NCBI GenBank assembly: GCA_016872215.1
Contig: VHAX01000011.1
Location: 1 to 53,749 of the forward strand
Origin: Sphingomonadales bacterium
GTDB taxonomy: Bacteria; Bacteroidota; Bacteroidia; UBA7662
DNA: 53,749 bases
Direction of reading: 5' to 3'
The notes under the pieces are model-generated. The model searched no databases. It was given only the letters and a program-made list of their open reading frames with translations, and had not been told where the DNA came from. A program made the translations under genes and the position numbers. Positions 1 to 12,281 of the stretch are shown here, piece by piece. The stretch's first letter is position 1, and each line of letters begins with the position of its first letter.

Positions 1-3000
1 AGCCGTAGGTGACAAATCTGGGGCAGGTGTCAATTGAATCTGTATGGGGGTTACCTTCCGATTGTTCGAGCGATGCGGGTCGCCCGACAAATTCTGCTCA
101 GGATCGACAATGCTGATCAGATAATAAGGGCCAGAAACCCCATTCGGCAGGTTAAACGACAAATTTTTCGTGTATTGAGCCCCCGGGGCCAGGCTTCCCG
201 AACTGGTCGACTGCGACAAAAGGGTTGCGTTAGCTAATGACTGGCTGTCGGCTGATAAATAGATCCGCTCATGCCACCACGAATTACTGGGTAGTGAATC
301 GGGCCCAGCGTTATAAACCTGCAGGCTGGCCGAATAAGATTGACCAGATGATAAAGGTGCAGGAACCGTAAACTGTGTCACCTGCACATCGTAGGCAGGT
401 CCAGCCAAGGGTCCGGATACAAAAACGGGGCGCGGTGCGAACATCCGTGAAGAACCTGAAAAGCCGTTATTACCTTCAAAAATGTATTCATATACCGATT
501 GATTCATGTCGGTAACCGCATGAAAATGGAAGCGACCATTCAAGTTTGGCGCAACAAAAAGTCCACGGCGTACCACAGAATCACCCGCCGCAATCAGCCC
601 ATTAAATGGGGAGGCATTAACATTAATGAGAATAGAATGCGCCGAACCTCCTGGAGCGGTCGACACATACAACCGATCAGCGAACGATGCGGCAGATGGC
701 CCTGTGCCACGGTTCACCACCGTCCACTCTACCTCATAAACAGAATCAGCCCTTAGGGTGTCGACCAGCGGTAATTGCAAACGACTAATCTGCAAATCGG
801 GGTATGGGGAGAGGGTAATTTGGACAACATTTCCAAATCTTCTGTTGTTATTGTTGTATACATACTCAAATGCATCGCCTCGGGCGTTGGTGTGCACCAT
901 CAGGTAATAGGTCCCAAAAATTCCTTGAGGCAGAGTAACTGGCTGGTTTTGCGTGTAGGACTGACCTGGAATCAGCGGTAGAGCCCCTTGATAAACCGCC
1001 CTACCGCCCAATGAAATGGCCGTTGATCGGTTGAAGATGGTATCCGGACAAAGCCAAAGTGAATCGATCCATACCGGAGCGGAAGGTGGATTGGCACCAC
1101 GGTTTCGTACCCGATACAAAAGAGAAACAGGTAGGCCCGACATACCCGTGGCGGCTACCACCACAGAATCCACCACCAAATCGGGTGGGGGCAACAAGGT
1201 GATTTCTGTGGCCATGCCCGCACCGCCCCGATTATTCTGCTCATCACGTTCTAGAATTACATCATCGCAGTCGGCCACTGCATGAAACCAATAAGTTCCC
1301 ACCAGCTGGGAAGGTAGAACAAAACTTAAATTGACTGTTCGACTGCTGTCGCGGCGCAGGGGAGCCGACATATTGGCTCCTCCATTTTGAGTAGGATTGA
1401 GTGCGATGGCATTACTGGGAAAAAACACACTGTCTGGCGATATAAAATAACAATTTCGCCACTGGCTGCCGGGGGGGATGTCCACCTGACCTGTGTTTTT
1501 GTATATAACCGTAAGCGCCACCGTGTTTCCACTGAAGGTTGCTACAGGGGCTCCGACCGATTCAACTTTGAGGTCCGGAAGAGGTGATGGAACAATATTC
1601 AGAATTCCAAAAGCCGCGTTGTTGTCTTCACGCAGCTCAGGCATGCGCGCATCGGTGGTAAATCGGACGAGACCAGATGGGCAATAATTGCCAGGCTGAC
1701 TGCATAAGATTGCATCCATATTATCCGCCACCACGAACAAATACATATTGCTCAAAATACGGGCTGGCAGTTCTACCCGAACCGTACGTAGATAAGATTG
1801 ACCAGTATCAAGATAAGTTAAATTTTGAAAAGTACCCAGGAGGAAATCATCGAACTGGTTGAGGTTATTGTCGGTCGATATATATACGCGGTCATACCAT
1901 ACTGTGGCACCCGTTGTGTACTCACCCATGTTGCGAACACGATAAGTGATGTCGACCTGGCTGCCCGACAAGGCTGAGGTGGGCAGCAACAACGAATCTA
2001 CGATAAGGTCAGGCAACGAACGATAGCCAAAAGTGAGGCTATCAGAAAAAGTATCGTAGCAACTGTTGCGCGCTGCCACTTGCCAGCGGTAATCTTCGCC
2101 CAGCAATAAGGCCTGAGTCCACAATACATTGATTCCGGCATTGGCTCTTGTGGGCTGAGCAGGCCGAGCCTCACCGACGCGCCATAGATAGAAATCATAT
2201 TGAACAGCACCTGCCGAAACATCCCAACTGAAGTTTATCGGTGCTGTTAGGTTAAGCGAATTGTTGAGTGGAATCAGGTTTGTTGGAATGGCGGGTGGTA
2301 TGGGTTGACGCACCTGAATGGCCACTGTATCATGAACCACGCAGCCGCTAGAAGCGGTGTATTGAACGGTGTAGGTGGTGGTAGACTGAGGTGCCACGCG
2401 GATCGAAGCGGTATTTTCACCCGTCGACCACAGTCCCTGAACAAAGCCTGTTGCGATCAACTCAGTTGAATCGCCCTGACAAAGGACAGAAAAGCCGTTG
2501 ACCTGAATGCTGTCTGCATACCATTGAATGTTGCGTGAAGCCAAAATTCGTCCGTCGCAAACATCAGTATTCCCGACTGACGGGTTATAGTGGATAAGGT
2601 TGTATTGTCCACCCCGCTTAACATAAATCGAATCGCCCAGTTCACCAGTCGACCAAATATAAGAACCTGGAACCGAAGCGTAGAGCAAAAGGGAGTCACC
2701 TTGGCACAAACTACCTCCTCCCGAACCAGTTAGAATTGACACAGGACCGGGTGGCGTAGTTACCTGAACAGTAACACTTGCCGTTGAAAAACAACCACTT
2801 AATGCGGTGACCGTTACGCTGTAGGTGGTGGTGACTTGTGGATTAACCATCAAAACGCTGCCTGTAGCGCCATTGTTCCATGAATAAAATGCACCGCCCT
2901 GTGCCCTCAAGGTGACCTGTGTACCGGCACAGACGAAAGCCTGACTAGCCGAAGCGGCTGCCGCTACAGGAATTGAATCGAATTGAACACTTATAGAGGC

Positions 3001-4794
3001 CGAAGTATCTCTGCATCCCGCTGGAGTTGATACCACCACTCGGTATCGACCCCCCGCCCCCGCCATAAACAACGAATCCTGGGCACCTGCCAAGGTTACA
3101 CCGTTCAGCTGCCATTGGTAGGAGTTGCCCGCTACATGACTGGCCTGAAGCAAGACCACATCGCCCGCACATCGTGAGGTGGGCGTAAGCGGCTGAATCT
3201 GGGCCACAGCGGCGGGGTGCACAACCACCTGTATGCTGTTAGAAAGCACACCGCAGGGCGACTGCCCGTCATACAATACCACGCTGTATTCGCCCGATTG
3301 CGTGGCTGCATATTCAAAGGCTGTAGCTCCAGGAATGTCAATGCCTTGGTTGCGCCATTGGTAAGCAGCAGCCGAACTTGCCACCGACCGCAATACTACC
3401 GCTGTGCCGCCGCAAACCACTGTATCGCCCAGGGCTGAGATGACTGCTTGATAGGCGGGCGTTGGATTCACTGTGAGGTGTAGGGTCACCATGCTATCGC
3501 AGCCCGCGGCGTTGACCAATGTCTGGGTATAGGTTCCCGTACTCGTTAAATTCAAACCAAAAAAGGAATAGGACGATGGCGCGCAAATATCAACAAACTG
3601 TTCGCTGCCACTCGAATGTAAACCTTCTATCGAGCCATCGGTGTAGGAGAGCGAATCAAAAATCTGGGCTGCGCTGTTGGCCAAGATCCCGATTGCCCGA
3701 TCCCATACCAACCCGCTCGATCCAGTTCCTATTTGAATAAACCTCAATTCCTGAATCGTTCCATTTAAATTTGCTGAAGCAGTATCATACCAAGCCAAAA
3801 CAACCGATCCTCCCGAGGAATGCAGGTTCGTACTTATGGACGCTATTTGCGGATCCGTATGAATAGCGTCCACAAATTGCAATAACTGGTTGTTGAAGTG
3901 AAGGTGCATGGTTATATCGCCGATATTTACGGCATTCGTGATGCTCACGGCCACCACTACAGTATCACCCAAGCAGGCCGATGTCGAACCCACCCCAATA
4001 TTGGGGATCAACACGTTCAAAGCGGCTGACGACGACACTGACAAGCATTGACCAGCAACAGAAGCTTGAAGTCGGTACAGGTAACCACTCATAGCCGCTG
4101 TGATCCCTGTAATTTGGAGCTGTGGCGTAAATACCCCCAAATAGTGGCCAGCATCCTGTAGATCCATCCATGCATTCCCTCCGTCGGTACTCATCTGCCA
4201 ACGATAAGCGCTCGCTCCTGTAACCGAAGCGCCCAAAGAGGTAGATCCGTAGATTGGTACGGTAAGCGTGCCCGTTAATCCACCGGCAAAAATGGGGAAT
4301 GGGGCAACAGCGACGGAACCATTTAAAAAGATGGTCGAATCAAGAACTGCGAAATTGTAGTCGACGATTTCCGACTGAGCCACATTAAAAGAGAGGGCGG
4401 TGGATGCATGAGCCTGAAAGGAAAGATTGACCAACACATCATTCAATAGTGTCGCTGGGGTTTGGGTCGCGGCCCAAGCTATGCGTATTTCCGATGGTGA
4501 ATAGGCAGAAACAATGAGCGAATCGGTAGTGAGGGCGGAGCCATTGGAACCCAAAAAAGTGAGCGCTGCGGGATCATATTGAATAGCCAGAGAGAGGGCA
4601 CCAATCGAAGGGAAATTCCGCATGTTGATGGGCACTTGTATGGAAGCGCCGGCACAGGTACTGACACTATCCATACTAACAACTGGGTTTTGAGCCCACA
4701 ATTGCGTATTGTGCAGACTGGCTAAAAAGAGGAGGCAACAAATACTCAGTTTAACTTTCTTCAAAAAGCTATTGTGCGAAATTGAGTTTACCAT
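1..4794 (-). CDS. Giant secreted cohesin/CARDB-module surface protein, 3' end beyond window
   Basis: Reading the minus strand from the ATG at 4794 gives 1598 codons with no stop up to the window edge, so the C-terminus is missing. Residues 1-34 form a signal peptide (basic KKVK, hydrophobic ICCLLFLASL, end WAQ). Two cohesin-like modules lie at about 33-160 and 258-385; the first has the signature IGALSLAIQYDP. One 51-residue GCDS module (about 392-452) resembles those of the downstream neighbour. Ig/PKD-like modules with YQW or YSW cores follow to about 835, then an Fn3-like segment (838-925). CARDB-like modules of about 130 residues start at PDL/YDV near 927, 1072, 1203, 1330 and 1467, with another beginning at the edge. 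This is probably an exported, cell-surface or secreted adhesin; a T9SS tail is expected but not visible. The module names rest on pattern recognition. The reading frame is certain, the function is not. Confidence 0.85.
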   Translation of the reverse strand, partial: MVNSISHNSFLKKVKLSICCLLFLASLHNTQLWAQNPVVSMDSVSTCAGASIQVPINMRNFPSIGALSLAIQYDPAALTFLGSNGSALTTDSLIVSAYSPSEIRIAWAATQTPATLLNDVLVNLSFQAHASTALSFNVAQSEIVDYNFAVLDSTIFLNGSVAVAPFPIFAGGLTGTLTVPIYGSTSLGASVTGASAYRWQMSTDGGNAWMDLQDAGHYLGVFTPQLQITGITAAMSGYLYRLQASVAGQCLSVSSSAALNVLIPNIGVGSTSACLGDTVVVAVSITNAVNIGDITMHLHFNNQLLQFVDAIHTDPQIASISTNLHSSGGSVVLAWYDTASANLNGTIQELRFIQIGTGSSGLVWDRAIGILANSAAQIFDSLSYTDGSIEGLHSSGSEQFVDICAPSSYSFFGLNLTSTGTYTQTLVNAAGCDSMVTLHLTVNPTPAYQAVISALGDTVVCGGTAVVLRSVASSAAAYQWRNQGIDIPGATAFEYAATQSGEYSVVLYDGQSPCGVLSNSIQVVVHPAAVAQIQPLTPTSRCAGDVVLLQASHVAGNSYQWQLNGVTLAGAQDSLFMAGAGGRYRVVVSTPAGCRDTSASISVQFDSIPVAAAASASQAFVCAGTQVTLRAQGGAFYSWNNGATGSVLMVNPQVTTTYSVTVTALSGCFSTASVTVQVTTPPGPVSILTGSGGGSLCQGDSLLLYASVPGSYIWSTGELGDSIYVKRGGQYNLIHYNPSVGNTDVCDGRILASRNIQWYADSIQVNGFSVLCQGDSTELIATGFVQGLWSTGENTASIRVAPQSTTTYTVQYTASSGCVVHDTVAIQVRQPIPPAIPTNLIPLNNSLNLTAPINFSWDVSAGAVQYDFYLWRVGEARPAQPTRANAGINVLWTQALLLGEDYRWQVAARNSCYDTFSDSLTFGYRSLPDLIVDSLLLPTSALSGSQVDITYRVRNMGEYTTGATVWYDRVYISTDNNLNQFDDFLLGTFQNLTYLDTGQSYLRTVRVELPARILSNMYLFVVADNMDAILCSQPGNYCPSGLVRFTTDARMPELREDNNAAFGILNIVPSPLPDLKVESVGAPVATFSGNTVALTVIYKNTGQVDIPPGSQWRNCYFISPDSVFFPSNAIALNPTQNGGANMSAPLRRDSSRTVNLSFVLPSQLVGTYWFHAVADCDDVILERDEQNNRGGAGMATEITLLPPPDLVVDSVVVAATGMSGLPVSLLYRVRNRGANPPSAPVWIDSLWLCPDTIFNRSTAISLGGRAVYQGALPLIPGQSYTQNQPVTLPQGIFGTYYLMVHTNARGDAFEYVYNNNNRRFGNVVQITLSPYPDLQISRLQLPLVDTLRADSVYEVEWTVVNRGTGPSAASFADRLYVSTAPGGSAHSILINVNASPFNGLIAAGDSVVRRGLFVAPNLNGRFHFHAVTDMNQSVYEYIFEGNNGFSGSSRMFAPRPVFVSGPLAGPAYDVQVTQFTVPAPLSSGQSYSASLQVYNAGPDSLPSNSWWHERIYLSADSQSLANATLLSQSTSSGSLAPGAQYTKNLSFNLPNGVSGPYYLISIVDPEQNLSGDPHRSNNRKVTPIQIQLTPAPDLSPTA

Positions 4795-4868
4795 GGCGAA
4801 AAAATTTAAAAGCAAGGAGAAAAGATGACAGTTCGTAAGTGAAGCCGACCACGCCGAATGCCAGTACA

Positions 4869-7800
4869 TTAATAAGCAGCCTTCACCAAACGCAACTGGC
4901 GGCGCTCGGGTATTCCTCCCGAATCGTAGACGAAACTACATTGGTATACGCCGGCCGAAAGCAGAGATACGGGAAGGTAAATCGTATGGGCACCCGCTGA
5001 AAGCAGTTCCTGAGGGCTGCTGTAGACCCTTCTTCCCGACGCATCGCTGATCTGATAGTAGATACTACCAGGGCGAGACAACTGAATCGACAAGCGCGAT
5101 TCATCACCAAAAGGATTGGGGTAGCACATGAGCGACCAGCCCGTGCGGTCGGATGAAGACAAAACAGGCACCAATAGCTTTGGCATGGTATGCGGAATGC
5201 CCATTCCATTGGCCAACTCACAATCAGCCAAGGCCAACCATTGCGCGGACAAGGCCGTGTTCAGGTGCGGATTCTCTGTTTCGAGTAACAATAGGTCATC
5301 ACCCGCGCGCAAGTTCAAGGGGCGGCTTCCAAACCAGGCCAACCGCAACACCCGGTCATGTTGCTCGAAAACAACAGGCGAGGAGCCTTCGGCTGCTGAC
5401 GGAACACGAATATTGCGCACGCGCAGACCATCGGGGAGCAATAAATCGAGCGAGATGGCCGCTACCTCCAGGTCTTCCCCCACCCTAATGGGCCACGCTC
5501 CATCCGATTCATCGAAGCTTCCCGATTGTTGCAATAGAATCCCAGCCGCATGCCGTAGACCTGGCAACGGCACATAACTACCGTTGGCGTCGCCCGCTGT
5601 TAGCGCCCGCAGGTGCACCGCCACCGTGTCGTTTTGCAAAGTCACTGAGGAGTCTGAAAACACCCAATCGCTCAAGGCAAAGGTGTAGCCCTGCACCGCA
5701 TAGCGACTTAAAATCTGAAGGGCATCCGTGGCGTTCACAACCGACGATAGATTCACGTCCGCCGCCCTGTGGAACAACCCCATAAGGGGTGCACGACCTG
5801 AAAAATGCTGGTTAACGAAAAATGCGTCGGTGGCATTCACCCCACCCCAAGGCTTTTGGGTCGACACACCAAAGTGATAGGGTTGGCCAGATGATAATCC
5901 AGTGAATAAAAACAAACCCTGTGCATCCGTTGAAGTCGTTCCCAACACGGTATTTCCACTCAACAATTGCACCTGCGACTGATTCATCGGCGTTGCGAAC
6001 CGATTCAGGTAGCTGATGCGACCCGTTATGCGGTTGCAGGGAAGAACCGTGAGGTTAAGGGTCACCAAGCTGTCACAGCCCGCCTGATTGGTGAGCAGGG
6101 CAGTATACAATCCACTGTTGGCGTACTGAAATCCGTTAAAGGAATAGGACGCCGGGGCACAGATGGTGGCGCTAAGGCTGTGGGTGCCGGGCTGGTTGAC
6201 CGTCAGGTTCAGCGCGATTACACTGTCGCAACCCACTGCGTTTGTAAGTGTGGAGGTGTAGGTGCCCGTTGTGGTGAGTGACTGGCCGTTGAAGTTGTAG
6301 GTCGCCGGGGCACAGATGGTGGCGCTAAGGCTGTGGGTGCCGGGCTGGTTGACCGTCAGATTGAGATTGACCACACTATCGCATCCGGATGAACCAGACA
6401 AATGAACCATATAGATACCCGATTGCCCAAAAGTTTGGCCACCCACCTGAGCAACCGAGGGAGCGCATATTGTTTGGGTTAAATGAACTGCAACCGGCTG
6501 GTTTACCATGAGATTCAGCTGCACAAGGCTGTCACAACCCTGGGCATTGATCAGAAGGGCCGTATATAGCCCACTCGAATGGTAACTCTGTCCATTGAAT
6601 ACAAAACTACCAGGTGAACAAATCGATTGATTCAATACGGTGACAGGCTGTTGTGGGTGGACAGTTAGATTCAGGGTAATAAAACTATCGCAACCCAGCG
6701 TTGTCGACATCAATTGCGTGTATCTTCCCGAGGATGTTAGCACTTGAGAACCGAACACATAATTTCCTGGTGCGCATATGGCTGCTGCCATCTGAACCGA
6801 GGTATCACGCCCAACCGTCAAATTCAACGTCACCACACTGTCGCATCCCGAAGCAGATGTGAGGGTTGATGTGTAGGTGCCTGATGAGAAATAGAGCGCC
6901 CCACCAAATAAAAATCCTGTTCCGGAACAAGCCTGTGCACTAATATGGTTCTGAACCGGTTGAGCTGCCGACAGTAAAAAACCGGTCGATGTGTCTGTAC
7001 ACGTACCTGCAGAATTGCTCACCAACATACGATAAGTTCCGGGAGAAATCGCTAGTAGAGTTGAACTGTTTTGACCTGGCAAAACTTGCCCATCCAGCAA
7101 CCACTTGTACATTACATTAGGAAGTTGGGTGCCGCTGAGTAATACTGATTGGGACGGACATATATGGGATGGGCCACTAATTAGAATCTGCCCTCCAGTA
7201 CCCAAAAGATTATTTACTTGAACAGATTGCGAAGTATCCGAACAACCCGCCGGATTGCGTACAACCAATCGATATAATCCGGCAGTATTCACCATAACCA
7301 CTCTACTCACAAGACCAGGAACAACCACGCCATCGCGAAGCCACTGATATGATCCGCCGTTAACAGGCGAACCCGTCAACATAACAGACTGTCCACCACA
7401 AAGGTTGGTAACGCCAGTAACCGAGACCAAGGATTGCGGGTAAGGTTCAATGTTGACTTGAATACCGTTGCTCAGAGGCGATGGACAATTGAGCGCGTTC
7501 AATATTTGCACCTGATAAAAACCGCTAAGAGTCGGCGAATAAATAGGTTGATCAGCACCTGGAATGGCTGATCCATTACGAATCCACCGAATTCGCAATC
7601 CTACCGGTGGTTGACTCGATTCCAAGGTCACCAATGAACCCGCACAAATGCTGGTCGGTGTAAGTGCGGAAACGGTTGCGGCTGGAACCGCAGCGTCACG
7701 CCTAAAAGAAAATGGGATGGATGTCACTGAGCCGCAAGAATTGCTCGCCGTTACACTGATCTGACCCACCCCCAACGTCCAGCCACTCAAATCAAGTGTG

Positions 7801-10800
7801 ATGTTTTCGGTATTTCCACCCGATAACAAAACCGCACCTGAGGGAATCGACCATGCATAGTTAGATGCGGTGTTGACTGATGCAATTGAAAAAGAAACAA
7901 TATTTTCAGTCCAGCAGACCACCGGACTACCATGGATTGATCCAGTCATTACGGGCATGGTTTCTACCCTTACCCAAACTGTATCTGGGGCGCTGAAACA
8001 GCCAGATGTGCTCTCCATCCTAACCAGGTACATTCCAGACATCGCTGTATTGGCTGATGGAATTTCCAGTTGTTCCAGTTGGGAATAAAATCCGTTAGGA
8101 CCGGTCCAGTGTATATTGCCCAAGGGCCTAAATTGAAGTCCAAATCGAACAGTATCGCCTTCGCAGGCCACTACATCTGCTGATGCAACTGGGACAGCGG
8201 GCGGCACACAGTTGGTGAAAGGTGCAGTGCCCACTGTGCTCCATTGACCGTTGGAGTCGCGAACCCTAACGGCTAATGTGTGACCCCCGAGCGATAAAGT
8301 TCCCGTTGGCAGGCTAAAGCCTCCTTGAATTGCCGTTTGTCCGAGCGGGATAGCAAACGACTGGTCCAAGCCAATGCCTGGGTCTGTATCAATAAAGTAA
8401 GCAGCGGAGTCTAATGTGGCTCTTGGTGTTGTTGGGATTTGAGCTGAGTCGATTACCCGAATCAATCCAAAAACAGCATGGCTCCAATCGCCACGCACAT
8501 TTTTTGTCCGAACACCCATAAAATGAAGCCCGATCGAAAGTCCTGCAGAAGGAATATTGGAAAAAGTACCAACTTGGACGCCACGGCCAATAGAAAGCGA
8601 ATAACCCAATCCCGGACCTGGATCCGTGTCGAAGAAGTACTCAGCTGCTACAACATCTGTTGAATTTGCAGCAGAAACATCAAATATTTGAAAATACTCC
8701 GTGCGAGAACAAACGCCGTCGCTCACCTGGACATAATATACACCTTGTGTTAGACCATCTACAAATGGTCCAGTGGCACCATTGCTCCATAAATATGCAT
8801 ATTGCCATGCACTACCCCCTGAGGCAGTTACTCGGGCACTACCATTTGATCCGCCATTGCTCTCGTGATTCACGCTGACCGCAACCCTAATCTCAGGTGG
8901 AGCATGAAGGATCAAGGGGGTGCTAAAACGCACATTGCCATATTGGTCATTGTAGCGGACAGAATACATTCCCGAAGCAGTTGTATATATGATTCGACTC
9001 GTCTCGCCGGTATTCCACAACCAATTACTTCCAGCAGGCGCAGTAAGCATACGGCGAGTTGGTGCACAGAAAGTTAATGGACCGTCCGCAACAATTTGAC
9101 CAGGCGGAGCTATTCCAACATTCACCTGCCTGATGATTTGTGTCGCGCAACTATCTCCTGCGTCCAAAACCAGCATCACATCATAAACACCCGCCTGAGC
9201 AAAAACGGCTTGCGCCACCGGTCCTGTGAAATCGAAAGGCCGACCCAAACGAACCGAAAAATTATCGATCGACCAAGACTCGTTGCACAACCACTCCCCA
9301 TTCGACTGATCTATGCTAAATGATAATGAACTGGACGTATCCGGTATGGTAAAACGTACACGGTATACAGAGCTTGGGGTGCCCCAACATCGACCACCTA
9401 CCTGCCCCTGATACACCACCTGAGGATAAGTGAGGGGCGTATGACCACAACACCAAACAGCGTAGGGGTTAAAATAAAAAGTCCCTAAGCTTTGTCCGTT
9501 TACGGAGAAAGTGAATGGCTCATCGCCGTCCCAAGAGTCGTGGGCATACAAATCAAATGAAATGGTCTTCGACACATGAGGGCTCAAACCAGACTGATTG
9601 TATGAGATGCTTTGGTTGATAAACGGACCCAATACGTTGGAACCCTGGAACGAAAACACATCCGTAACATTCCAACCCTGTGTGTTTTGCTCAAAATCAT
9701 TGCTTGAGGCTGAACCCCGAACATCACCAACGTACCAACCATAGGTCGTGTTCGAATCTACATTCTGTGATGTACTGCTGAGCAACACCGAACTACCCGG
9801 CTGGGCATTGCTGCCCACAGAGAAGTCGGGAATGGCAGGGCTACAACCCACCGAAATCACCTCAAATGGCATACTTTTGGCGTGCGACCAATGACCAAAT
9901 AAATCAAGTCCGCGAACGCTTAATTGATGGAACCCGGTCGAAAGTGAAGAAACAGCCACTGAACTCAGTGAAACGATTGTATCTCCAGGCTGTACAGCAA
10001 TAGGTACGCCATTTCCACAACCCGGATCGGCATCAAAAAAGTACTCCGCCGCAATGAGCGGGGCACTGATTCCAAAACCTGGTGGTGGTGGAGGGCTAAC
10101 GAAAAACAAAGTAGACGAAGCAAAGCTCCAGTTGCCCTCTGCATCCCGAACCCGAACTGAGAAGCGGTGCAATCCTGGGCTAGCTTGGGCTACACTGGCC
10201 TGAAATGTTTGTGTAAGCATAGTATCGAATGATCCAGATAATTGAATAGGGTTTGCTCGTCCCGGACCAGGATCAATGTCCACAAAATACTCGGCCTCAA
10301 TCAAATTTGGCATAAGGGGCAAAACCTGCTGCTGCTCGATTCGAATCAAACTATGGCGTGCAATACCCCAGCCCGACAGAGCATCTTTCACGCGAACACC
10401 AATAAAATACAGGCCAGGGGGAATAGAGCCCAAAGAAACATCAGCAACAGCCGAGATTTGGCTTAAGCCCGGCACTGGAATCGGGATTCCCAAGCCTGGA
10501 CCTGGATCGACACCAATAAATACCTCGGCTGCCACTATACCCACAGAAGACGCGACGGAGCTATCGATTAGATGAAAAGTAAAATTTTGTGGACAGACTC
10601 CATCTGTCACCACAAGCGTGTATGTTCCGGCCTGCAAACCCGCTATCGAGGCGGTGGTGGCACCGGTATTCCATAAATAAGTGTGTAGAAGAGTGCTGCC
10701 GCCACGCACTTGGACATTGATGCTGCCATTGGAAAGGCCATTGGTTGGTCTGTTAATCTGGGTTACAACCAATGGAACATCCAGAACATCGACGTAAACA

Positions 10801-12281
10801 GAAGGAGTAGTTCTTCGAATCGAAGCACCGGGCGAATTGTATAAACAGAAATAAGTGCCCCGACGGTCCACACGTATGCTTCTTGTCACTTCACCAGTAT
10901 TCCACAGCCAATTTGCGCCCAAAGGTGCGGTTAAATCAACAAAACCGCCCAAACAAAATGTAGTTGGACCCGAAACCTGCACTTGATTGACTGCACCAAG
11001 TCCCACCTCAACCTGCCTGATGATTTGTGTCGCGCAACTATCTCCTGCGTCCAAAACCAGCATCACATCATAAACACCCGCCTGAGCAAAAACGGCTTGC
11101 GCCACCGGTCCTGTGAAATCGAAAGGCCGACCCAAACGAACCGAAAAATTATCGATCGACCAAGACTCGTTGCACAACCACTCCCCATTCGACTGATCTA
11201 TGCTAAATGATAATGAACTGGACGTATCCGGTATGGTAAAACGTACACGGTATACAGAGCTTGGGGTGCCCCAACATCGACCACCTACCTGCCCCTGATA
11301 CACCACCTGAGGATAAGTGAGGGGCGTATGACCACAACACCAAACAGCGTAGGGGTTAAAATAAAAAGTCCCTAAGCTTTGTCCGTTTACGGAGAAAGTG
11401 AATGGCTCATCGCCGTCCCAAGAGTCGTGGGCATACAAATCAAATGAAATGGTCTTCGACACATGAGGGCTCAAACCAGACTGATTGTATGAGATGCTTT
11501 GGTTGATAAACGGACCCAATACGTTGGAACCCTGGAACGAAAACACATCCGTAACATTCCAACCCTGTGTGTTTTGCTCAAAATCATTGCTTGAGGCTGA
11601 ACCCCGAACATCACCAACGTACCAACCATAGGTCGTGTTCGAATCTACATTCTGTGATGTACTGCTGAGCAACACCGAACTACCCGGCTGGGCATTGCTG
11701 CCCACAGAGAAGTCGGGAATGGCAGGACTACAAGACGGGCTGATGACATCAATTTGGCCGGATCGGGTGAAAGACCAGCGGCCGAGCAAATCGCGGGTGC
11801 GCAGATTTAATCGATGAATGCCAACGGGCAAACCACCTAAGGAAATCGAAAATACACCCATGGTGGTATCGCCAGGAAGAATCAAAAGAGGCAATCCATT
11901 TCCACAACCGGGATCGCTGCCAAAAAAGTACTCGGCCCAAACGACTGGTGCAGGTTGGAGTGATACGGGTCCTGCAAAAGAATCCGTTACGAAAATAGAA
12001 CCTGAGGCTCCTATACCCCAGCCATATTGAGCGTGCAATACACGAACCACCAAATAATGCATGCCGGGCACAGCATTTGAAAAAGACACCTGAAGTGCAG
12101 ACACATCGAGCGTATCCAATCCGGGGGTTATGGGGATGCTGGTTGCAGCCCCCACCCCAGGGTCCACATCAAAAAAATATTCAGCAGCAATAATCCCTGT
12201 CTGGGCCTGGGTATAGCCAACACTGCAAAGCAGCATCAACCACAAACAAAGGCCGCTTGGGCGCATCCAAAGACGTTCCAT
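4869..12281 (-). CDS. Giant T9SS-secreted adhesin with SprB-like, GCDS and dockerin-like modules (2470 aa)
   Basis: Residues 1-26 are a signal peptide ending in TQA. Seven modules begin with EYFFDxDPGxG-like motifs. Two copies of a 239-residue jelly-roll/PKD-like segment (about 186-424 and 815-1053) are each followed by an Ig-like WLWNTGE module and an SprB-like repeat (YLWNTGATT, YLWSNGATG). Ig-like modules follow to about 1770, then six modules of about 51 residues ending GCDS(V/L/F)xxLNL (about 1774-2079). A dockerin-like region (about 2080-2240) has two NATDA motifs and GDANGSY. The C-terminal 80 residues, with YPNPF and SAGVY, match a T9SS type A sorting domain. The protein should be exported by Sec, cross the outer membrane through T9SS and be attached to or released from the surface. 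It lies 26 bp downstream of the beta-helix gene and so is probably cotranscribed with it. Ligand unknown. Confidence 0.9.
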   Translation of the reverse strand: MERLWMRPSGLCLWLMLLCSVGYTQAQTGIIAAEYFFDVDPGVGAATSIPITPGLDTLDVSALQVSFSNAVPGMHYLVVRVLHAQYGWGIGASGSIFVTDSFAGPVSLQPAPVVWAEYFFGSDPGCGNGLPLLILPGDTTMGVFSISLGGLPVGIHRLNLRTRDLLGRWSFTRSGQIDVISPSCSPAIPDFSVGSNAQPGSSVLLSSTSQNVDSNTTYGWYVGDVRGSASSNDFEQNTQGWNVTDVFSFQGSNVLGPFINQSISYNQSGLSPHVSKTISFDLYAHDSWDGDEPFTFSVNGQSLGTFYFNPYAVWCCGHTPLTYPQVVYQGQVGGRCWGTPSSVYRVRFTIPDTSSSLSFSIDQSNGEWLCNESWSIDNFSVRLGRPFDFTGPVAQAVFAQAGVYDVMLVLDAGDSCATQIIRQVEVGLGAVNQVQVSGPTTFCLGGFVDLTAPLGANWLWNTGEVTRSIRVDRRGTYFCLYNSPGASIRRTTPSVYVDVLDVPLVVTQINRPTNGLSNGSINVQVRGGSTLLHTYLWNTGATTASIAGLQAGTYTLVVTDGVCPQNFTFHLIDSSVASSVGIVAAEVFIGVDPGPGLGIPIPVPGLSQISAVADVSLGSIPPGLYFIGVRVKDALSGWGIARHSLIRIEQQQVLPLMPNLIEAEYFVDIDPGPGRANPIQLSGSFDTMLTQTFQASVAQASPGLHRFSVRVRDAEGNWSFASSTLFFVSPPPPPGFGISAPLIAAEYFFDADPGCGNGVPIAVQPGDTIVSLSSVAVSSLSTGFHQLSVRGLDLFGHWSHAKSMPFEVISVGCSPAIPDFSVGSNAQPGSSVLLSSTSQNVDSNTTYGWYVGDVRGSASSNDFEQNTQGWNVTDVFSFQGSNVLGPFINQSISYNQSGLSPHVSKTISFDLYAHDSWDGDEPFTFSVNGQSLGTFYFNPYAVWCCGHTPLTYPQVVYQGQVGGRCWGTPSSVYRVRFTIPDTSSSLSFSIDQSNGEWLCNESWSIDNFSVRLGRPFDFTGPVAQAVFAQAGVYDVMLVLDAGDSCATQIIRQVNVGIAPPGQIVADGPLTFCAPTRRMLTAPAGSNWLWNTGETSRIIYTTASGMYSVRYNDQYGNVRFSTPLILHAPPEIRVAVSVNHESNGGSNGSARVTASGGSAWQYAYLWSNGATGPFVDGLTQGVYYVQVSDGVCSRTEYFQIFDVSAANSTDVVAAEYFFDTDPGPGLGYSLSIGRGVQVGTFSNIPSAGLSIGLHFMGVRTKNVRGDWSHAVFGLIRVIDSAQIPTTPRATLDSAAYFIDTDPGIGLDQSFAIPLGQTAIQGGFSLPTGTLSLGGHTLAVRVRDSNGQWSTVGTAPFTNCVPPAVPVASADVVACEGDTVRFGLQFRPLGNIHWTGPNGFYSQLEQLEIPSANTAMSGMYLVRMESTSGCFSAPDTVWVRVETMPVMTGSIHGSPVVCWTENIVSFSIASVNTASNYAWSIPSGAVLLSGGNTENITLDLSGWTLGVGQISVTASNSCGSVTSIPFSFRRDAAVPAATVSALTPTSICAGSLVTLESSQPPVGLRIRWIRNGSAIPGADQPIYSPTLSGFYQVQILNALNCPSPLSNGIQVNIEPYPQSLVSVTGVTNLCGGQSVMLTGSPVNGGSYQWLRDGVVVPGLVSRVVMVNTAGLYRLVVRNPAGCSDTSQSVQVNNLLGTGGQILISGPSHICPSQSVLLSGTQLPNVMYKWLLDGQVLPGQNSSTLLAISPGTYRMLVSNSAGTCTDTSTGFLLSAAQPVQNHISAQACSGTGFLFGGALYFSSGTYTSTLTSASGCDSVVTLNLTVGRDTSVQMAAAICAPGNYVFGSQVLTSSGRYTQLMSTTLGCDSFITLNLTVHPQQPVTVLNQSICSPGSFVFNGQSYHSSGLYTALLINAQGCDSLVQLNLMVNQPVAVHLTQTICAPSVAQVGGQTFGQSGIYMVHLSGSSGCDSVVNLNLTVNQPGTHSLSATICAPATYNFNGQSLTTTGTYTSTLTNAVGCDSVIALNLTVNQPGTHSLSATICAPASYSFNGFQYANSGLYTALLTNQAGCDSLVTLNLTVLPCNRITGRISYLNRFATPMNQSQVQLLSGNTVLGTTSTDAQGLFLFTGLSSGQPYHFGVSTQKPWGGVNATDAFFVNQHFSGRAPLMGLFHRAADVNLSSVVNATDALQILSRYAVQGYTFALSDWVFSDSSVTLQNDTVAVHLRALTAGDANGSYVPLPGLRHAAGILLQQSGSFDESDGAWPIRVGEDLEVAAISLDLLLPDGLRVRNIRVPSAAEGSSPVVFEQHDRVLRLAWFGSRPLNLRAGDDLLLLETENPHLNTALSAQWLALADCELANGMGIPHTMPKLLVPVLSSSDRTGWSLMCYPNPFGDESRLSIQLSRPGSIYYQISDASGRRVYSSPQELLSAGAHTIYLPVSLLSAGVYQCSFVYDSGGIPERRQLRLVKAAY
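6150..6206. repeat. 57-bp exact direct repeat, unit 1
   Basis: Identical to 6303-6359, with an offset of 153 bp, which is exactly 51 codons. It lies in the array of six GCDS modules of the giant adhesin and covers the linker NQPGTHS plus the start LSATICAPA of the next module. Confidence 0.95.
6303..6359. repeat. 57-bp exact direct repeat, unit 2
   Basis: Second copy of the 57-bp segment at 6150-6206. The remaining modules of the array keep the protein motif but differ in DNA sequence, so these two neighbours were copied or converted most recently. Confidence 0.95.
9124..9839. repeat. Copy A of a perfect 716-bp intragenic direct repeat
   Basis: Base-by-base comparison shows identity to 11011-11726 at a fixed offset of 1887 bp. 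Beyond the right end one mismatch (g/a at 9840/11727) is followed by six more identical bases. The left end stops abruptly at 9124. The repeat encodes the 239-residue jelly-roll/PKD-like segment of the giant adhesin, from PAIPDF to IIRQV. The paralogous modules on both sides are clearly diverged. Confidence 0.97.
11011..11726. repeat. Copy B of the perfect 716-bp intragenic direct repeat
   Basis: Identical to 9124-9839 in the same orientation and reading frame, with no synonymous difference. It lies in the first of two paralogous super-units of about 629 residues in the 2470-aa adhesin. Confidence 0.97.

Follow-up and report, generated by a model that had tools for sequence, protein, structure and literature searches.

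The giant adhesin gene and its modules

The window (the whole 53,749-bp stretch of DNA analysed) carries on its minus strand an open reading frame (4869-12281) for a giant adhesin-like protein of 2,470 amino acids. Its modules comprise seven DPG modules, two interrupted PKD domains, Ig-like modules, SprB repeats, GCDS repeats, a dockerin-like module and a T9SS type A sorting domain. The last of these, matched by TIGR04183 at residues 2387-2453 (30.6 bits against a cut-off of 23), stands at the C terminus, as in T9SS type A secreted proteins. The earlier note had described two super-units in this protein, and the outline held. Of the seven DPG modules, two precede the first block, three separate the blocks and two follow the second unit. 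The features discussed below are as follows.

4869-12281, minus strand: giant T9SS-secreted adhesin-like protein (open reading frame, Pfam, TIGR04183)
11739-11936, minus strand: DPG module before copy 1, homologous to 9852-10049 (alignment)
11011-11726, minus strand: identical block, copy 1 in the protein, residues 186-423 (716/716 identity)
11112-11609, minus strand: guest domain, copy 1 (HDSWDG...NESWSIDNF), within the PKD fold (homologues, alignment)
10557-11012, minus strand: Ig-like and SprB-like modules after copy 1 (alignment, SprB Pfam)
9840-11010, minus strand: unique spacer X, with an Ig-like, a SprB-like and three DPG modules; X plus one block makes 1,887 bp
9852-10049, minus strand: DPG module before copy 2 (alignment)
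9124-9839, minus strand: identical block, copy 2 in the protein, residues 815-1052 (716/716 identity)
9723-9839, minus strand: N-terminal half of the host PKD, copy 2 (PAIPDF...WYVGD; joined-halves PF00801 match)
9225-9722, minus strand: guest domain, copy 2, within the PKD fold, approximate borders (homologues, alignment)
9124-9236, minus strand: C-terminal half of the host PKD, copy 2 (GRPFDFTGPV...IIRQV; joined-halves PF00801 match)
8664-9125, minus strand: Ig-like and SprB-like modules after copy 2 (alignment, SprB Pfam)

Ahead of the T9SS tail, residues 2085-2395 (window 5097-6029) include the dockerin-like module (PF00404, 23.2 bits against a cut-off of 22.9), and this region has 19 matches in the genome (G000), itself counted. 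The same genome has 10 cohesin-domain matches, 9 of them above the cut-off, with 2 in the adjacent downstream gene (1-4869). Together, the dockerin-like and cohesin matches look like a T9SS-exported surface assembly of the cohesin-dockerin type in a small-genome Bacteroidota-type bacterium. The contig starts (window position 1) within a CARDB-repeat gene, leaving the second giant protein incomplete, and ends (53749) within a 5S rRNA gene.

A 716-bp block is identical in both halves of the gene

At an offset of 1,887 bp, the maximal exact match runs over 9124-9839 and 11011-11726. The identity including synonymous sites that had been reported for this pair was borne out, with all 716 base pairs and all 238 codons the same in both copies. 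If codons were drawn at random from the gene's own usage, codon identity of this extent would have a log10 P of about -111. The offset is 3 x 629 bp, that is, exactly 629 codons, and the spacer between the blocks is unique sequence of 1,171 bp. Only these two copies of the block exist in the 2.09-Mb genome. Highly similar internal repeats also occur elsewhere in it, as in contig C23, with 138-bp units more than 90% alike.

Several causes of such identity were considered and rejected. An overlapping gene or an RNA constraint freezing the synonymous sites was ruled out: beyond the gene itself, the block contains no overlapping open reading frame of at least 80 aa and no Rfam match, and its predicted RNA folding is not unusual (z = -1.46). 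GC at third codon positions in the block (0.508) is close to that of the gene (0.480) and thus gives no compositional sign of foreign origin. Nor does the block resemble a mobile element, given the lack of inverted repeats in the block region, of a third copy in the genome and of a recombinase-length open reading frame within it.

The block is a domain within a domain

Judged by its sequence, the block is a single domain: a PKD fold into which a guest domain of some 160 aa has been inserted. The first 39 and last ~39 residues of the block, when joined, match PF00801 at 29.8 bits (cut-off 23.5) and so have the sequence of a PKD domain; the intact block gives no PKD match, and either half by itself stays below the PF00801 cut-off. 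The block edges coincide with the borders of this one domain (PAIPDF and IIRQV), in agreement with what had been proposed for them.

The guest, with its motifs HDSWDG and NESWSIDNF, matched no Pfam family. The whole block matched no NCBIfam family and no solved structure with a clear sequence relationship. Single-sequence structure prediction of the block gave a mean pLDDT of 33, too poor for use; with such a prediction and no solved sequence relative, the jelly-roll segment assigned here in the earlier note was not confirmed.

The guest domain recurs in other genomes of the class

Of the 395 genomes of the class that were sampled, 23 have the guest domain; it stands both in short open reading frames (about 220-240 codons) and within giant proteins. 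We regard it as a candidate new domain family (HDSWDG...NESWSIDNF; loci L026-L054). The three other genomes of the same genus gave no match to it, and no relative was found in viral contigs; a genome-contig scan returned one match, to the PKD part only. Comparison of the neighbouring gene with the genus gave a match over only 102 residues in G003, too little for synteny.

Two family members, G007 and G012, carry one guest domain each at ~51% amino acid identity, placed between modules and outside a PKD fold. In several other genomes the guest seems to split an Ig-like module in two (VTLRG...[guest]...LLWSTGDTT), and joining the two Ig-like parts from one example brought no Pfam match. In relatives of family f13 (loci L033, L035, L037, L038 and L050), the guest and a C-type-lectin-like stretch seem to break Ig-like modules at a similar loop. 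This distribution suggests that the hosting of guest domains may be a recurrent design. Five guest copies in two proteins of G253 share 68-75% DNA identity; they have diverged without homogenisation, so multiple guest copies are not kept identical as a rule.

The modules around the block are saturated with change

Gapped alignment revealed the same order in both halves: DPG module, block, Ig-like module and SprB-like repeat. The homology is collinear up to the block edge on both sides (VIS..CSP before it, V.VG after it). Identity nevertheless falls abruptly there, from 716/716 bp to 48% and 50% (ungapped) in the adjoining 150 nt of each flank, and the longest exact runs that the flanks share are 14 and 11 bp. 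The strong divergence of these modules noted earlier was thus upheld, at a gap-aware amino acid identity of 43% upstream and 40% downstream. Where flank residues are identical, the codons agree in 18 of 41 cases upstream (14.6 expected under random choice) and 27 of 61 downstream (23.2 expected). Because this is close to random expectation, synonymous sites in the flanks are, by this measure, saturated.

At face value, divergence between the block copies is at most 0.42% per site (95% upper limit), or a dS of 0.019 over 160 synonymous sites. In being far more alike than its flanks, the tract fits the pattern of gene conversion. The common module order points to the whole unit, beyond the block alone, as an old duplicate, and saturated flanks around an unchanged block place the block identity much later. 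On this evidence, the unit duplication is old and the block was homogenised long afterwards.

Apart from the block, the only exact direct repeat of at least 35 bp in the window is a 57-bp pair at 6150/6303. It forms the exact run within two GCDS-type modules (6133-6386, 153 bp apart) that share 86% identity over 101 nt. This pair is a second sign of local homogenisation within the giant-adhesin gene.

Contig ends reveal a short-read de Bruijn assembly

We collected all 106 contig ends of the genome, with the ends of contig C53 masked, and found overlaps of exactly 127 bases at 35 of them, as 14 end-to-end pairs and 4 forks. We take such overlaps to be the mark of a SPAdes-like de Bruijn assembly; the genome is a short-read assembly of this kind with k = 127. 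At this k, a 716-bp repeat is not spanned by a k-mer and becomes a shared graph edge (R). The unique spacer X has R on both sides, while the outer sequences A and B each have R on one side, so the simplest linear path is A-R-X-R-B, as in the contig. Two real copies of the block are thus likely, whereas the figure of "100.0%" identity and the number of 629-codon units, coming from a k = 127 assembly, are putative. The limit that such an assembly sets on claims about perfect repeats is a general caution for draft genomes.

Contigs of this genome do break at repeats. Contig C23 begins inside its adhesin array of 138-bp period, a repeat shorter than 716 bp. At the ends C34R and C35R (L161 and L162), contigs break in long (DDGDV)n and (GIRTH)n tandem repeats of a protein with MPNHVHGI, presumably the motif of REP-associated transposases. 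The ends C18L, C36L and C40R (L090, L111 and L167) hold near-identical copies of a protein ending in variable (EGRAEGR) repeats, which we take to resemble Rpn/PDDEXK-type transposase proteins.

Origin of the identical blocks

The reading we favour, with fair but far from complete confidence, is a recent non-reciprocal copying of the domain between the two halves of the gene, by gene conversion or by ectopic module replacement. In this account, an ancestral unit (DPG, PKD with guest, Ig-like and SprB-like) underwent an ancient duplication inside the gene, and its copies drifted apart until their synonymous sites were saturated. At a much later date, non-reciprocal recombination would have overwritten one PKD-plus-guest domain with the other, giving a pair of near-identical, sharply bounded blocks of 716 bp. 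Such copying accounts for the abrupt edges and for a block that is unchanged between saturated flanks; that it was non-reciprocal and took place within the cell, which way it ran and how recent it was (dS < 0.019 at face value) are what we infer. Against conversion stands the state of the flanks, since the domains before the event would be expected to have been about as diverged. Strand exchange in bacteria is said to require an identical segment of up to ~30 bp (PMC8918686), and with shared runs of 14 bp at most, ordinary homology-driven conversion starting from the flanks would be hard. Either the domain was kept similar by repeated earlier conversion, or the event was illegitimate, that is, a module replacement.

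Three other accounts bear on the same observations. One half may have lacked the PKD-plus-guest domain, or carried another domain in its place, until illegitimate recombination at the domain borders recently brought in the copy of the other half. This would explain why the edges are abrupt at both borders of a single domain amid flanks without the homology for normal conversion, and across the class the guest moves as a module in varied contexts, alone or within other modules. However, the flank homology is collinear right up to the block, as if a homologous domain had stood there before, and we consider such an insertion or swap unlikely. An effect of the assembly itself seems somewhat less probable still: two real copies that differ at a few positions would have been collapsed into one sequence, or the count of 629-codon units would be off. 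Assemblers normally merge near-identical branches, and the 127-base overlaps, the repeat being a shared edge and the contig breaks at shorter repeats all fit this account. Merging, however, requires long shared stretches and leaves room for no more than a handful of differences, ~5 if these are evenly spaced. As sharing an edge demands near-identical copies, a recent event would stand against the saturated flanks even if a few differences had been merged.

A simple mis-join had also been raised; it would mean that the block is single, or lies in two separate genes, and that the contig is chimeric. The worry is sound in kind, as this is a short-read assembly and exact repeats are the usual sites of mis-joins. 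Here, however, the unique 1,171-bp spacer carries the block on both sides along the simplest path, the joined gene reads as a single open frame of 2,470 codons that ends in a T9SS tail, and the surroundings of the two junctions are homologous in each of their modules; we hold a mis-join to be highly improbable. Recent non-reciprocal copying thus remains the best-supported reading, in keeping with the earlier proposal of conversion or module exchange confined to one domain, reconstructed here from the saturated flanks, unchanged block and domain-border edges of one genome. The further claim of "active reshuffling" goes beyond the data: one event is seen, the three genomes of the same genus are without the domain, and the G253 copies have diverged.

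If the copying took place as proposed, only the two blocks would now offer the gene identical sequence of sufficient length for RecA-mediated exchange to work efficiently at a distance. Exchange between them is predicted to delete or duplicate exactly 629 codons in frame, the deletion taking the protein from 2,470 to 1,841 aa. A bolder and distinctly doubtful idea is that the PKD-plus-guest domain is the ligand-binding part, held identical by recurrent copying while the other modules drift, which would give a bivalent site and in-frame switching between 2,470 and 1,841 residues.

Comparison with known systems

The case belongs to a known kind of event, with the mechanism and the class of protein both already known; that the homogenised tract is one domain within a domain is a neat feature rather than a new one. 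Its value is as a clean example, a single homogenised domain in a giant T9SS adhesin whose duplicated halves are saturated elsewhere, and in its testable prediction, the in-frame loss or gain of 629 codons.

Gene conversion between bacterial paralogues has been documented with long reads, for example in the PE/PPE genes of Mycobacterium tuberculosis (PMC12046097). There, as here, a tract is identical between two homologous places amid diverged sequence. In the PE/PPE case the ancestral state is known from sister strains, while for the block it is deduced from one genome, and here both partners lie in a single gene, one in each half, between far more diverged flanks.

In CshA/B_NR2, a family that illustrates domain shuffling among adhesin modules (PMC10952558), a domain likewise occurs in varied multidomain contexts across many species. 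The guest domain has no Pfam match and is kept apart from that family.

For Periscope Proteins, in-frame change of length has been attributed to high DNA identity within the genes of these surface proteins (PMC8201768). The giant protein resembles these in being a large surface protein with internal DNA identity sufficient for in-frame, length-changing recombination. Periscope Proteins have tandem arrays of near-identical folded stalk domains, adjacent to one another, and observed length variation; in contrast, the two blocks described here, known from one genome, are non-adjacent, lying 1,171 bp apart with diverged modules between them.
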